A stretch of 16,842 bases of DNA from Magnetococcales bacterium. GTDB lineage: Bacteria; Pseudomonadota; Magnetococcia; Magnetococcales; Magnetaquicoccaceae. The stretch is taken from the NCBI GenBank assembly GCA_015228895.1, contig JADGCR010000025.1, positions 1 through 16,842 of the forward strand, read 5' to 3'. Below, piece after piece: positions 9,413 to 16,842 of this stretch. Made by a program: the position numbers and the translations under genes. The notes below the pieces were generated by a model. It searched no databases. It worked only from the letters and a program-made list of their open reading frames with translations, and had not been told where the DNA came from. Numbering within the stretch: the stretch's first letter is position 1; each line of letters begins with the position of its first letter.

Positions 9413-10732
9413 TCACAAAATATAGCGGGACAAATCCTCGTTCTCCGACAAATCCCTCAACTGGCTGTTCACGAACGCCCCATCGATCAGGATCGTCTCC
9501 CCCCGCCGGTCCGGCGCGGTGAAGGAGATCTCGTCCAGCAATTTTTCCATCACCGTGTGCAGGCGTCGCGCCCCGATGTTCTCCGTGGTCTCGTTGACCC
9601 GGGCGGCGATCTCCGCCAGCGCCCGCACCCCGTCCGGAACAAACTCCAAGCCGACCCCCTCGGTGGCCAGCAAGGCCACATACTGCCGGGTCAAGGCGTT
9701 CTCCGGCTCGGTCAGGATGCGCAGAAACTCCTCCACCCCCAGACTCTTCAGCTCCACGCGAATCGGCAGGCGTCCCTGCAACTCCGGCAACAGGTCCGAA
9801 GGCTTGGACATCTGGAAGGCGCCAGAGGCGATGAACAGGATATGATCCGTCTTCACCATCCCATGCTTGGTGCTCACCGTGGTTCCCTCCACCAGCGGCA
9901 ACAGATCCCGCTGCACCCCCTCACGGGAGACATCCGCCCCCCCGCGCGACTCCCCGTTCCGGGCGCAAACCTTGTCCAACTCGTCCAGAAAGACGATCCC
10001 GGACTGCTCCACCCGCTCCAGGGCGCTCCGCTTGGACTTCTCCCGGTCCACCAGCTTTCCAGCTTCCTCATCCACCAGGATCCTGGCGGCCTCCCTGACC
10101 GTCAACTTGCGGCGCGAGGAACGCATGCCGCCCAGAACCGATCCCAACATGTCCTGCAAATTGATCCCTTCCATGCCCTGGGGGGTGAAGACCTCCAACG
10201 TGGGACCGGAACGGGCCTCCCGCACCTCGATTTCGATCTCCCGATCGTCCAGCTTCCCCTCCCGGACCATCTTGCGGAACTTCTGCCGGGTGTTGGAATC
10301 CCCCCCTTCCGCGCCCGTACCCGGCAGCAGGGCATCCAGGATCAACTCCTCCGCCGCGTCCTCCGCCTGCCGCCGCACATCCAGCTTGGAACGCTCCAGG
10401 TGCATCTTCACCGCCATGTCGGTCAGGTCCCGGATGATGGACTCCACATCCCGACCCACATAACCCACCTCGGTGAACTTGGTCGCCTCCACCTTGAGAA
10501 ACGGCGCGTCGGAGAGCTTGGCCAGACGGCGGGCGATCTCGGTCTTGCCCACCCCCGTGGGCCCGATCATCAGGATGTTCTTGGGATACACCTCCTCCCG
10601 CATGGACCCGTCCAGACGCTGCCGCCGCCAACGGTTGCGCAAGGCGATGGCCACCGCCCGTTTGGCGTCGTTCTGGCCAACGATAAACCGATCCAGCTCG
10701 GAAACAATCTCACGGGGGGTATATTCGGACAT
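9413..10732 (-). CDS. hslU: ATP-dependent protease ATPase subunit HslU
   Basis: HslU (ClpY) is the AAA+ hexameric unfoldase that feeds proteins into the HslV peptidase in the cytoplasm. The product is 439 residues, the normal length. It opens with [20 protein letters not shown], then Walker A GPTGVGKT, the pore-loop region [16 protein letters not shown], Walker [11 protein letters not shown], and sensor/arginine elements near [15 protein letters not shown]. The C-terminus ends in LSRYIL, the tail that inserts into HslV and activates it. The ATG at 10732 shares one base with the hslV stop (TGATG), indicating translational coupling; a GTG three bases earlier is also in frame. The gene pair is intact and typical. 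Confidence 0.98.
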
Positions 10733-14100: not shown

Positions 14101-14457
14101 ATGATCATGAATAGTGAAAAAATTACCAAAAAAATGACCGAAATGACCCGGATGATGATTGATTCCATTACCGAGTTGCAAAAAATCAATGACGCCACGG
14201 TGCGTGAGCTGGCAAAACAACAATTGGATGCCATCGAAGGCTTCAACACCGCCGGTTCCCGCCAGCTCAACGAACTGGCCGCGGCCAAATCCCCCAAGGA
14301 ACTCCTGGCCGTGCAAACCGAAATCGCCGCCGAAGTGGCGAAGGACATGAAAGCCAATACCCAGCGCGCCATGGATGTGCTGATGCAGGGTCAAAAGGAA
14401 CTCAAATCCTTCATGGAGAAAAATGTAAAGGATTTCATTGACAAAACCAAGAGCTGA
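14101..14457 (+). CDS. Phasin family protein (PHA granule-associated)
   Basis: Phasins coat polyhydroxyalkanoate granules in the cytoplasm and control their size and number. The product is 118 residues, almost wholly helical and rich in Lys, Ala, Gln and Met. The pattern fits the phasin_2 family: an N-terminal helix (ITKKMTEMTRMMIDSITELQ), a middle AVQTEIAAEVAKDMKANTQR segment and the tail ELKSFMEKNVKDFIDKTKS. Two start codons are in frame, ATG at 14101 and 14107; AGGG at 14093 is 4 or 10 bases away, so the choice is open. It has its own promoter and a strong terminator, so it is probably a single-gene unit. In magnetospirilla a phasin (Mms16/ApdA) was once taken for a magnetosome protein, which makes the position beside an Mms6-like gene worth noting. 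The family call is good, though no paralogue or PHA synthase is in view. Confidence 0.85.
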   Translation: MIMNSEKITKKMTEMTRMMIDSITELQKINDATVRELAKQQLDAIEGFNTAGSRQLNELAAAKSPKELLAVQTEIAAEVAKDMKANTQRAMDVLMQGQKELKSFMEKNVKDFIDKTKS

Positions 14458-14491: not shown

Positions 14492-14529
14492 CGCCCTGCT
14501 TTTGATCGACAAAGGCAGGGCGGTTTTTT
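14492..14529 (+). terminator. Rho-independent terminator after the phasin
   Basis: A 12-bp stem pairs CGCCCTGCTTTT (14492-14503) with AAAGGCAGGGCG (14511-14522), with one G-T pair and a 7-base loop. It is followed by G and six T. It lies 35 bp after the phasin stop and separates it from the Mms6-like gene. Confidence 0.9.
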
Positions 14530-14580: not shown

Positions 14581-15081
14581 ATGTTACCTGTCAAGCAAGT
14601 CGTCGCCATTCAACAGAATACCGCCCCCTGCGCCAACGCACTGCTCAACGCGAGAATTCGCGAGGTGGAAGCGGCGGAAGGGGCCAAACTGGCCGCCGCC
14701 AAAGGGAGTGTGGTCAAGGGAACGGCCGGTGGCGCCACCCAAACCGCCGCCGGGACCGGGATGAAAATCAAAATGGGTGAAGTCGAAACGGCGAAGATCG
14801 CCAAGGGCCTGGCCGCCAAAGGCACCGTGACGCAAGGGGCCGTGGCGGGCAAAACCGTGGCGGGCAAAACCGTGGCGGGCAAAACCGTGGCCATCGCGAG
14901 CCAACCAGCGGCCAAGGGGATGTTCCTGGCGACCACCAAAACGGTCGCGGGCGCGGGGGTGGGGGTATCCACCTGGGGGCCGGTTTTGTTGGCCGCGCTG
15001 CTGGTCGCCTCCGGCACCGGAATCTATTTCTACCTGAAAAAACAGGGTGCCATCGGCGAGTTGGAAGAGATCAGCACCTGA
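14581..15081 (+). CDS. Mms6/MamD-like putative magnetosome membrane protein
   Basis: The product is 166 residues with the layout of magnetosome proteins Mms6 and MamD. It has a long low-complexity region rich in Ala, Gly, Lys and Thr (about 30-120), including three exact VAGKT repeats (88-102). This leads into a small Gly/Val repeat (AGAGVGVS, 123-130), one transmembrane helix opening with WGPVLL (132-151), a basic edge (YLKKQ) and a short acidic tail (GELEEIST). Mms6 from magnetospirilla has a similar AAKTG-type repeat region, a Gly/Leu repeat, WGP-VLL at the helix start and an acidic C-terminus that binds iron; this comparison is from memory. The tail here has only three acidic residues, far fewer than Mms6. 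The start ATG 14581 has GGAG 8 bases upstream; a GTG at 14563 is less likely. It follows the phasin terminator and precedes an 85-residue gene by 31 bp. No other mam/mms gene is visible, so the family call is moderate. Confidence 0.6.
   Translation: MLPVKQVVAIQQNTAPCANALLNARIREVEAAEGAKLAAAKGSVVKGTAGGATQTAAGTGMKIKMGEVETAKIAKGLAAKGTVTQGAVAGKTVAGKTVAGKTVAIASQPAAKGMFLATTKTVAGAGVGVSTWGPVLLAALLVASGTGIYFYLKKQGAIGELEEIST
14842..14886 (+). repeat. Three exact 15-bp tandem repeats
   Basis: The unit GTGGCGGGCAAAACC occurs three times without a mismatch, in frame with the Mms6-like gene, and encodes VAGKT each time. The preceding 15 bases (14827-14841, VTQGA) look like a decayed copy. Exact identity at DNA level points to recent slippage or duplication, so copy number may vary between strains. 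Confidence 0.95.
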
Positions 15082-15112: not shown

Positions 15113-15370
15113 ATGACCCAGAATGACGGGGTGGAGGTGATCGAGGTCACGGACCGCATCGAGGCACCGCAACCACCCGCTGCAGCACCATCCCCGGCCC
15201 GGGAAGCCGGAACACCCGCCAGCAGGCCACAAACCGACACGGTGCCCATCGAGGATCTGGTGACGGTTTTCGTGGACTCCATGACCAACCTGGTGGCCCA
15301 CTTGATCCAAACCGGCCAAAAGGTGGCCCGGGTGGCGGTGAAAAAAATCCGCGCCCTTTCCAATCCATAG
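15113..15370 (+). CDS. Small hypothetical protein paired with the Mms6-like gene
   Basis: No family was recognised. The product is 85 residues from the ATG at 15113, which has GGAG 8 bases upstream, the same ribosome-site arrangement as its neighbour. The N-terminal third is acidic (GVEVIEVTDRIE). A Pro/Ala-rich linker (about 19-43) follows, then an amphipathic C-terminal helix (about 45-80: IEDLVTVFVDSMTNLVAHLI, then QTGQKVARVAVKKIRAL) that changes from acidic-hydrophobic to strongly basic. It has no clear transmembrane helix or signal peptide. The frame continues upstream, but only into the preceding gene. It lies 31 bp after the Mms6-like gene and just before a terminator, so the two probably form a two-gene unit. 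A membrane-surface or partner-binding role is only a guess. Confidence 0.7.
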   Translation: MTQNDGVEVIEVTDRIEAPQPPAAAPSPAREAGTPASRPQTDTVPIEDLVTVFVDSMTNLVAHLIQTGQKVARVAVKKIRALSNP

Positions 15371-15394: not shown

Positions 15395-15441
15395 ATGGCC
15401 TGACCAGGCGGGAGACCCGCGAACCGTCAGGCCATTTTCTT
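15395..15441 (+). terminator. Rho-independent terminator after the small gene
   Basis: A perfect 10-bp stem pairs ATGGCCTGAC (15395-15404) with GTCAGGCCAT (15426-15435). The loop itself holds a GCGGG/CCCGC mini-stem. A T-rich tail follows (TTTCTTT). It lies 25 bp after the stop of the 85-residue gene. Confidence 0.8.
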
Positions 15442-15573: not shown

Positions 15574-16011
15574 ATGTCCACACTTATCAGCTACGACCCT
15601 TTTCGTTCTTTCCGTTCCCTGCAAGGGGAGATCAACCGGCTGTTCGAACGGGATCTGGATGAATCCAACGGCATGATGACCCAATGGCCCTTGCGGGTGG
15701 ACATCCGGGACGATGAACAACAGATCGTCATCAGGGCCGACATTCCCGGCATGGAGCAGAAGGATATCAACGTCCAGGTAGACAATGGCCGGCTCACCCT
15801 CTCCGGGGAACGCAAATTCGAGGATGAGTCGAAAAGGGATCAGTATCATCGCGTGGAACGGGCCTATGGCCGTTTCAGCCGCACTTTTCAACTGCCCAAC
15901 ACCACGGATACCACCGGGATTCTGGCCTCCTACAAAAACGGTGTCCTGGAGGTGGTCCTCCCCAAACGGGCCGAAGCCAAACCCAGGGCCATTCAGGTCC
16001 AGGTGGCCTGA
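15574..16011 (+). CDS. Hsp20/alpha-crystallin small heat-shock protein (IbpA/HspA-like)
   Basis: Small heat-shock proteins are ATP-independent holdases that bind unfolding proteins in the cytoplasm. The product is 145 residues, a usual length. The N-terminus carries the family's ISYDPFRSFRSLQGEINRLF pattern. The alpha-crystallin domain runs from about 38 to 130 and holds the block ADIPGMEQKDINVQVDNGRL, RVERAYGRFSRTFQLP and the closing signature YKNGVLEVVLPK. The C-terminal IQVQV is the short I/V-x-I/V motif that docks neighbouring subunits. AGGAGG lies 7 bases before the ATG at 15574, a very strong ribosome site. The gene stands alone between two terminators. No convincing sigma-32 promoter or ROSE-type thermosensor was identified in the ~130 bp upstream. 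Confidence 0.95.
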   Translation: MSTLISYDPFRSFRSLQGEINRLFERDLDESNGMMTQWPLRVDIRDDEQQIVIRADIPGMEQKDINVQVDNGRLTLSGERKFEDESKRDQYHRVERAYGRFSRTFQLPNTTDTTGILASYKNGVLEVVLPKRAEAKPRAIQVQVA

Positions 16012-16207: not shown

Positions 16208-16842
16208 ATGGTGAATGAAATCAAGAAAACTCTTGGGGGGTTGAGCAATCCCTGGCATTCCGGGCACAGCGGCCAGTTTCAGCCAGCCACGCCCGCGAGG
16301 GGGAGGGAACGCCAAACGCCATCCTTGCCACCGGAACCGATCCCGGAACCGATCCCGGAACCGACCGACGGCGGCGGCGCGCCACCATCCGTCCTGGAGC
16401 GCATCCGGGCCATTCAATCCCTTCGCTCCGCCCCTGCAGCCGACCAGGAAACCCCGCCCCCCGTCCCCAAAGGCACGATTGCGGAACGGATTGCGGCGAT
16501 CAGAAACAGACAGGCGTTACAACAGACCGCCTCGACTCCCCCACCCGCGCCGGTCGTCCAGCAGACCCCGCCACCCCCTCCCAGGCCTTTGGCAGCCCCT
16601 GCCCCGGCCAAACGGGTGGAACTGAAACGAGAGCTCCAGGAACCGGAACAGGAGTGGATGGAACATGTCCACAATGAACGCAATCTGACCGCCGGAGTTG
16701 GACCGGGCAAGCCGGCCTCCAGCCCCCCCCGGAGGGAGGCGCCCCCCATGGCGCGTCCCGCCGCGACAGACCCGGTGCAAAAAAGCCCACAGCCCCCCCC
16801 CCCCCGCCCCCCCCACCACCCCACCCACACCCCCCCCCCCCC
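16208..16842 (+). CDS. Proline-rich protein of unknown function (3' end outside window)
   Basis: No family was recognised. The frame runs from ATG 16208 to the end of the window without a stop, giving at least 211 residues. The product is rich in Pro, Ala, Glu and Arg and looks disordered. It has a short PEPIPEPIPEP repeat (about 42-52) and two copies of an arginine-isoleucine helix motif: LERIRAIQSLR and IAERIAAIRNR. A later charged stretch (KRVELKRELQEPEQEWMEHV) may form a helix. There is no signal peptide or transmembrane helix in the visible part, which argues against TonB. The ribosome site before the ATG is weak. A terminator and a likely promoter lie directly upstream, so it begins a new transcription unit. 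The last ~17 codons are read from a poly-C tract and may be artefactual. A coding role is probable but not proven. Confidence 0.6.
   Translation, partial: MVNEIKKTLGGLSNPWHSGHSGQFQPATPARGRERQTPSLPPEPIPEPIPEPTDGGGAPPSVLERIRAIQSLRSAPAADQETPPPVPKGTIAERIAAIRNRQALQQTASTPPPAPVVQQTPPPPPRPLAAPAPAKRVELKRELQEPEQEWMEHVHNERNLTAGVGPGKPASSPPRREAPPMARPAATDPVQKSPQPPPPRPPHHPTHTPPP
16331..16366 (+). repeat. Three 12-bp tandem repeats encoding PEPI
   Basis: The unit CCGGAACCGATC is repeated three times in a row, the third with a single T-to-C change. It produces the Pro-Glu-Pro-Ile repeat in the proline-rich protein. Confidence 0.9.
16793..16842. other. Poly-C low-complexity contig end
   Basis: Of the last 50 bases, 44 are C, with one G and five A scattered among them. 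This is unlike anything else in the window and is typical of a sequencing or assembly failure at a contig end. Bases and reading frame here should be treated as unreliable. Confidence 0.75.

Follow-up and report, generated by a model that had tools for sequence, protein, structure and literature searches.

A putative MamD-derived membrane protein encoded among housekeeping genes of a Magnetococcales bacterium

Does a magnetosome-type protein lie among housekeeping genes on the Magnetococcales contig JADGCR010000025.1 (assembly GCA_015228895.1), and, if so, to which family does it belong and what might it do there? The window, which is the whole stretch of 16,842 nucleotides that was analyzed, encodes a 166-residue protein (hereafter, the target) that an earlier note had described as a divergent Mms6/MamD-like product with an unusually short acidic tail, possibly marking the edge of a magnetosome gene cluster. 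Our analysis points to a MamD-derived paralog located off the magnetosome island and to a putative role in the maturation of the magnetosome membrane, a reading to which we assign a probability of roughly 0.6.

The gene and its membrane module

14581 to 15081, + strand: open reading frame (ORF) of 166 amino acids with an ATG start and a TGA stop, encoding the target, a putative MamD-derived membrane protein
14659 to 14733, + strand: first copy of the N-terminal repeat (residues 27 to 51, REVEAAEGAKLAAAKGSVVKGTAGG), by eye one of the variants of E.EAAEGAKA.AAKGT..KG found in the protein's clade
14773 to 14853, + strand: second copy of that repeat (residues 65 to 91, by eye), with an 18-bp DNA repeat at 14695 and 14812
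14840 to 14891, + strand: 15-bp tandem repeat of 3.5 copies that encodes VAGKT units (repeat scan)
14974 to 15036, + strand: predicted transmembrane helix starting with WGP (residues 132 to 152), placed by hydropathy, the AlphaFold2 helix, and family alignments
15055 to 15078, + strand: short acidic tail GELEEIST (residues 159 to 166), in which GELEE and the S at 165 are invariant in all six members of the clade

The ORF is a real gene. A GGAG motif stands 8 nt upstream of its ATG (by eye), and a scan of the window upstream of it gave no promoter-like site. Residues 1 to 130 consist of 23% Ala, 14% Gly, 11% Lys, and 11% Thr, and this region is probably unstructured. An AGAGVGV stretch then precedes WGPVLL (W132), which begins the most hydrophobic segment of the protein, the four top 19-residue hydropathy windows beginning at residues 124 to 135. 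The AlphaFold2 model places a helix at residues 129 to 156; its mean predicted local distance difference test score of 54.6 is poor, and the helix alone is usable. A basic edge, KK, and the tail with its three acidic residues follow. All parts of the Mms6-like layout that the earlier note had described (the Ala/Gly/Lys/Thr region, the Gly/Val stretch, the WGPVLL helix, the KK edge, and the acidic tail) are indeed present.

The ortholog in locus L001 (nHA1bin2, genome G001) is 132 amino acids long and 57% identical to the target over 104 amino acids. Across a domain of 63 codons, the two genes differ at 17, 9, and 30 sites at the first, second, and third codon positions, respectively, and two methods give a nonsynonymous divergence (dN) of 0.25 and a synonymous divergence (dS) of 0.93 to 1.10, with dN/dS of about 0.22 to 0.26. 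The target and its frame look to be under selection.

Because a protein of such composition could match a repeat-rich family by chance, the similarity was weighed against composition. A hidden Markov model (HMM) of the domain, built from 23 canonical Magnetococcales sequences with the target left out, scores the target at 38.2 bits. Of 30,000 shuffled sequences (10,000 whole-protein, 10,000 last-50-residue, and 10,000 within-10-residue shuffles), none reached 36 bits and the highest-scoring one gave 19.5 bits, while the best of 4,495 decoy ORFs from 48 loci outside Magnetococcales scored 6.9 bits. These shuffles and decoys largely rule out a composition artifact as the source of the match. In an hhalign comparison with 23 canonical domains, three of them from Magnetospirillum genomes, the profile of the target and its ortholog aligned over residues 109 to 164 with a probability of 97.5% (E = 4.9e-12). 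When 11 proteins encoded in G001's magnetosome cluster were compared with the window by tblastn without a low-complexity filter, MamD alone matched, and at the target alone (42% over 72 residues, E = 5e-9). Judged by these comparisons, the C-terminal 56 residues of the target are homologous to the membrane module of Mms6, MamD, and MamG, and the homology is centered on the helix and its flanks. The relationship that the earlier note had suspected is therefore one of true homology over the WGP helix, beyond low-complexity bias.

A single-sequence search of 5.8 billion proteins returned the target itself and no relative at E ≤ 1; the ortholog (P0002), which is present in the protein database, was missed by that search and recovered by profile only. 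The target has no match among Protein Data Bank sequences, and its Pfam scan gave one weak and uninformative match (E = 0.17).

Placement among MamD, MamG, and Mms6

Among the NCBIfam profiles, the target matches MamG (E = 6.8e-4, 19.8 bits), MamD (E = 1.3e-3, 18.0 bits), and Hc2 (E = 0.014); Mms6 (NF040917, cutoff of 200 bits) is absent from its matches at E ≤ 1. A profile of the target and the L001 ortholog, in searches that scored the 7,996 candidates sharing the most words, adds four proteins, one of them from Magnetococcus sp. YQC-5 (P0003), and so yields a six-protein clade. A wider profile relists four of the five relatives (all except P0005) and adds P0007, a canonical family member. 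The target carries the precomputed Pfam label PF28196, and PF28196.1 is the label common to P0001, P0006, and P0007, the last of which carries the canonical GTIW..LGLG.WGP domain. Both the nearest ortholog and the YQC-5 member are annotated in NCBI as hypothetical proteins.

All six members match MamD in NCBIfam, and in the five besides the target it comes first (best E = 2.2e-8), with 17.8 to 33.7 bits in these five against a cutoff of 100, compared with 251.5 bits for G001's own MamD. A tree built from 38 domain ends groups the six proteins in one clade (support of 100/100), which sits on a long stem of 1.31 changes per column and joins L100, the MamD encoded in the G001 cluster (95/96). The GELEE tail is the same in all six, and variants of the E.EAAEGAKA.AAKGT repeat occur in one to three copies per protein (by eye). 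The target covers positions 193 to 302 of the 318 in the MamD profile and thus lacks the N-terminal half of MamD; the earliest match in the clade begins at position 165. The canonical GTIWxGxG motif and (LG)n run before WGP are not found in the target, which has GMFLATTKTVAGAGVGVSTWGP instead and keeps single Gly positions alone.

On the strength of these profiles and the tree, the target is a short, strongly changed relative of MamD, a MamD-derived paralog, and it is not an Mms6. The simplest history of the clade would be that the C-terminal half of mamD was duplicated, relocated, and diverged on a long branch. The MamD side of the identity proposed in the earlier note is thus borne out by the tree and the clade matches, while its Mms6 side finds no NCBIfam match.

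The tail agrees with this placement. Among 31 family domain tails, those of the window and L001 included, the number of acidic residues ranges from zero to eight, and tails that do not end in WPF or WPL have a median of three, which is the target's own count; G001's MamD has two. The two Magnetospirillum Mms6 proteins (L199 and L200), which exceed the Mms6 cutoff with 264.6 and 211 bits, have seven acidic residues each (by eye), and a long acidic C terminus of the Mms6 kind is not found in the target (three versus seven). Because the target's count is typical of the family in this order, the tail fits a MamD-type protein and not an Mms6 that has lost its mineral-binding end, contrary to the special loss that had been read into it. 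In one subfamily (L090, L096, L102, L105, L108, L114, and L118), a K.WPF, RLWPF, or WWPL end replaces the acidic tail.

Set beside known proteins, the target resembles MamD (NF040916) in its Ala/Lys/Gly-rich region, its Gly-rich C-terminal helix starting with WGP, its basic edge, and its short acidic tail, as well as in the matches and tree position of its clade. It differs from MamD in lacking the N-terminal half, a mam cluster beside it, and the GTIW/LGLGLG signature, and in scoring below the cutoff. With Mms6 it shares the order of N-terminal domain, Gly repeat, transmembrane segment, and charged tail (PMC11332177), but it has neither the profile match, nor the acidic count, nor the LGLGLG repeat of that protein. 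MamG (NF040985) is likewise a short protein with the same helix; the target, however, lies far under its cutoff, has a longer repeat region, and belongs to a clade whose other five members match MamD better.

Genomic setting and distribution

14107 to 14457, + strand: phasin gene, upstream neighbor (Phasin_2, 47 bits)
14492 to 14522, + strand: intrinsic-terminator-like hairpin of 13 bp with a T-run, between phasin and target
15113 to 15370, + strand: 85-amino-acid partner ORF with a conserved VPIEDLVTV.V..MTNLVA segment (close ortholog in 1 of 48 genomes, G001)
15395 to 15435, + strand: hairpin followed by a T-rich tract, past the partner ORF (found by folding; missed by the terminator scan, which has a loop limit of 8)
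15574 to 16011, + strand: HSP20 small heat-shock protein gene, downstream neighbor (Pfam; adjacency in relatives)

As the earlier note had it, the target stands beside housekeeping genes. Phasin lies upstream and HSP20 downstream. The two hairpins flank the target and its partner ORF in the window, so the pair looks like a transcription unit of its own. The partner has no Pfam or NCBIfam match; its 11 further matches (E of 7e-4 to 0.09) were taken as chance with their sequences unread. Between the window and L001 it differs at 12, 7, and 20 sites by codon position, mostly the third, which suggests, for this one pair of genomes, that the target domain and the partner are both under coding constraint. 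Both loci also share the gene order bioF, a reverse ORF of 218 or 224 amino acids, phasin, target, and small ORF. In L001 (14.0 kb) the cassette again follows phasin, with a phasin-target gap of 34 nt in which a scan gave no terminator-like site on the + strand, and there is no HSP20 gene within the locus. The housekeeping setting has been read for these two clade members. At the end of the window, positions 16793 to 16842 are a nearly pure run of C, probably an assembly or sequencing artifact, and the last ORF (16208 to 16840) may be affected.

Relatives show the site without the cassette. The orthologous phasin was found in 11 genomes with 75 to 94% identity, and in six of them (G004, G005, G009, G014, G037, and G038) HSP20 follows 232 to 369 bp after phasin with no cassette between; the corresponding gap in the window is 1,116 bp and houses the target and the 85-amino-acid ORF. 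In G003, HSP20 lies 307 bp after a phasin gene that reads in part only, and in G006 and G039 there was no HSP20 match within 1.5 kb around phasin. No pair of flanking direct repeats was reported at the cassette borders, and no search aimed at insertion sequence elements was made there.

The domain occurs in a lineage that bears mam genes. The bioF gene of the window is 59 to 76% identical to the first 26 loci listed, all from Magnetococcales, with L002 (76%), L028 (75%), and L001 (72%) at the top; the closest relatives of the window are metagenome-assembled genomes of this order. Across 48 Magnetococcales genomes, mamH was found in 45, mamK in 46, and the WGP domain in 46, and all 46 domain-bearing genomes have mamH and/or mamK; the domain thus follows the mam genes. 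It is missing from G029, which has mamK but lacks mamH, and from G038, which lacks both of these genes. In many genomes of the order, two to three copies of mamK lie on different contigs. A search of the 48 genomes with the target alone gave some match at E ≤ 0.001 in 27 of them and a close ortholog in one, G001; the next best match (2.6e-8) is a canonical family member. G001 carries its magnetosome cluster on a separate contig (L101), with MamH, MamI, MamE, MamK, MamQ, MamT, and the MamD mentioned above; MamE, MamQ, and MamT score below their cutoffs. That cluster also has two MamF/MmsF-like genes, identified by eye and by DUF4870 scores that are weak and fall short of the cutoff.

Beyond the order, a draw of 398 genomes from the phylum, with at most 15 candidates scored per genome, gave 50 domain matches, 46 of them in the order and 4 weak ones outside it, of which three are unrelated proteins by eye and one (L207) gave no ORF of 40 amino acids. 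The earlier note had named a spread of homologs among non-magnetotactic bacteria as one finding that would speak against it; on this draw, such a spread is rejected. The positive control gave four matches each in Magnetospirillum moscoviense BB-1 (G399) and in G403. The other 13 of the 15 control genomes, which were not sorted by magnetotactic status, comprise 12 with no match and one (G407) with a weak match in a 51-amino-acid frame with a stop.

In some Magnetococcales the Mms6/MamD family is greatly expanded, with 7 to 10 copies of the WGP domain per genome (G015, G010, G016, G025, and G026). On L102 (8358 to 8759, G012:C87), a canonical WGP-domain protein of 133 amino acids ends in KVWPF with no acidic tail among apparent housekeeping genes, and beside it (9496 to 10605) lies an actin-like gene that matches Pfam Volactin, an archaeal family, with 245 bits. 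On L103 (8379 to 8630, G010:C86), an 83-amino-acid mini-protein combines the WGP module with eight acidic tail residues; its neighbors are an FHA-domain gene and what is, by eye, probably a Ser/Thr kinase gene, with mamK 42 kb away on the same contig.

Possible role and competing explanations

We propose that the target is a bitopic membrane protein built from the C-terminal half of MamD, in which a repeat-bearing N-terminal region would be followed by a single Gly-rich helix that begins with WGP, a Lys-Lys edge, and the invariant GELEE tail. The gene would have originated within Magnetococcales, where a mamD-type gene was duplicated and the copy diverged, and would now belong, outside the main magnetosome cluster, to a two-gene cassette with the 85-amino-acid partner between phasin and HSP20. 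MamF-like proteins are reported to target proteins with an Ala-rich region and a Gly-rich C-terminal helix, namely MamD (also named Mms7), Mms5, and MamJ, whereas MamG and Mms6 have similar motifs yet show no such dependence (PMC11628618). Like Mms6, MamD moves conditionally to magnetosomes, and in the authors' model it limits membrane growth until MamE cleaves it (PMC11332177). Because the target has the same build of Ala-rich region and Gly-rich helix, minus the Gly-Leu repeat, it may be a membrane maturation factor of the MamD type. MamF-like proteins may insert it through its Gly-rich helix into the magnetosome (or inner) membrane, as for MamD. There it would act on size or maturation, with its transcription controlled separately, and would not nucleate iron in the manner of Mms6.

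Several observations weigh against this proposal. MamG, not MamD, is the target's first NCBIfam match, and both scores fall below the cutoff of 100. The GTIWxGxG/LGLGLG signature is degenerate in the target, and in AMB-1 the Gly-Leu repeat of Mms6, a protein that also comprises an N-terminal domain, a transmembrane helix, and a magnetite-interacting end, is needed for membrane localization (PMC11332177). The tree draws on 67 alignment columns, is rooted at its midpoint, and leaves 20 of its 35 inner branches open. The mam cluster that was seen belongs to the ortholog's genome; of the target's own genome, the analysis covered the window. Finally, two genomes whose bioF and phasin genes are nearer to those of the window, G002 and G008, lack the cassette as well as HSP20 in L002 and L028.

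A MamD-derived protein might, alternatively, have left the magnetosome, its helix being reused with the 85-amino-acid partner in another membrane or inclusion, for example, a phasin/polyhydroxyalkanoate (PHA) granule or a stress setting. The place between phasin and HSP20, the short phasin gap in L001 with no terminator-like site, the long stem, and the lost signature would suit such a departure. In the window, however, the 13-bp hairpin parts phasin from the target, and phasin and HSP20 adjoin each other in 6 of 11 relatives that have no cassette there, which implies that the insertion site may be chance; in the 10 of 22 papers listed on phasins, magnetosomes, and magnetotactic bacteria, titles or abstract openings make no connection with a MamD-type protein. 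We regard this alternative as possible, if unlikely. It is improbable that the gene is a decaying or neutral mamD duplicate with no present role: a close ortholog in only one of the 48 genomes, the absence of the gene from the relatives G002 and G008, and the rapid change of the repeats are what such a duplicate would leave, but the low dN/dS of the domain, the third-position differences of the partner (in one sequence pair), the GELEE tail retained in six of six, and the gene order retained in two genomes speak for constraint.

Could the target mark the edge of a magnetosome island that runs on past base 16842, as the earlier note had suggested? The window stops there, 1.8 kb after the target, and in G008 a lone full mamK lies 3.7 kb downstream of the orthologous phasin (L028:16056-17117, G008:C76). 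Yet mamH was found on none of the phasin contigs of the 11 relatives, a count weakened by the shortness of some of them (L074 is 11.6 kb), and mamK on that one alone; the WGP domain occurs among these contigs only on G001:C235, where it is the ortholog itself. The 11 G001 cluster proteins, which were the mam queries used on the window, match nothing there or in L001 besides the target and its ortholog (MamD query), and their cluster lies on a contig other than the ortholog's. Larger ORFs of other cluster contigs match the window or L001 only at apparent sensor-kinase, response-regulator, and GGDEF genes (by eye). Within what these contigs show, nothing points to a cluster edge, and we hold the suggestion to be highly improbable. 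A composition mimic, in which an unrelated membrane protein rich in Ala, Lys, and Gly (histone-like or PHA-associated) would be Mms6/MamD by appearance only, has the weak match to the low-complexity family Hc2 and the empty single-sequence search in its favor. It is scarcely credible in view of the HMM score against the best shuffle, the hhalign result, the MamD matches of the clade, the tree, and the tblastn match.

The MamD-derived paralog proposed here has partial precedents. The mamD-like gene amb0400 of the AMB-1 magnetotaxis islet is also a mamD relative outside the magnetosome island, but that islet spans 22 kb with seven mam-like genes and transposases (PMC2818848), compared with a two-gene cassette among housekeeping genes. 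A MamD-like protein of M. australis IT-1, set beside the target by description only, has partial-length similarity to MamD (23% coverage; PMC3934378), and scattered paralogs outside the clusters are reported for Alphaproteobacteria (PMC6819731). The clade, the degenerate signature, the partner ORF, and the housekeeping setting are not described in the literature listings or in the excerpts of PMC6783814, PMC3934378, PMC11332177, PMC6819731, PMC2818848, and PMC11628618, a set that leaves subscription papers outside its scope. A bolder extension, which we consider doubtful, is that the GELEE-tail clade and its partner form a portable cassette beside phasin that would act, independently of mam regulation, at the interface between a magnetosome or inner-membrane compartment and storage granules, as an off-island part of the Magnetococcales maturation toolkit.

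The target extends the list of magnetosome-related proteins, modestly but genuinely. It retains the helix and the short acidic tail with GTIW/LGLGLG and the N-terminal half of MamD gone and, therefore, offers a natural test of which features are key. Most searches for magnetosome genes look in the island, and a conserved MamD-derived clade, found among housekeeping genes in the two members with a readable context, suggests that island-only surveys of magnetotactic cocci miss members of this family.
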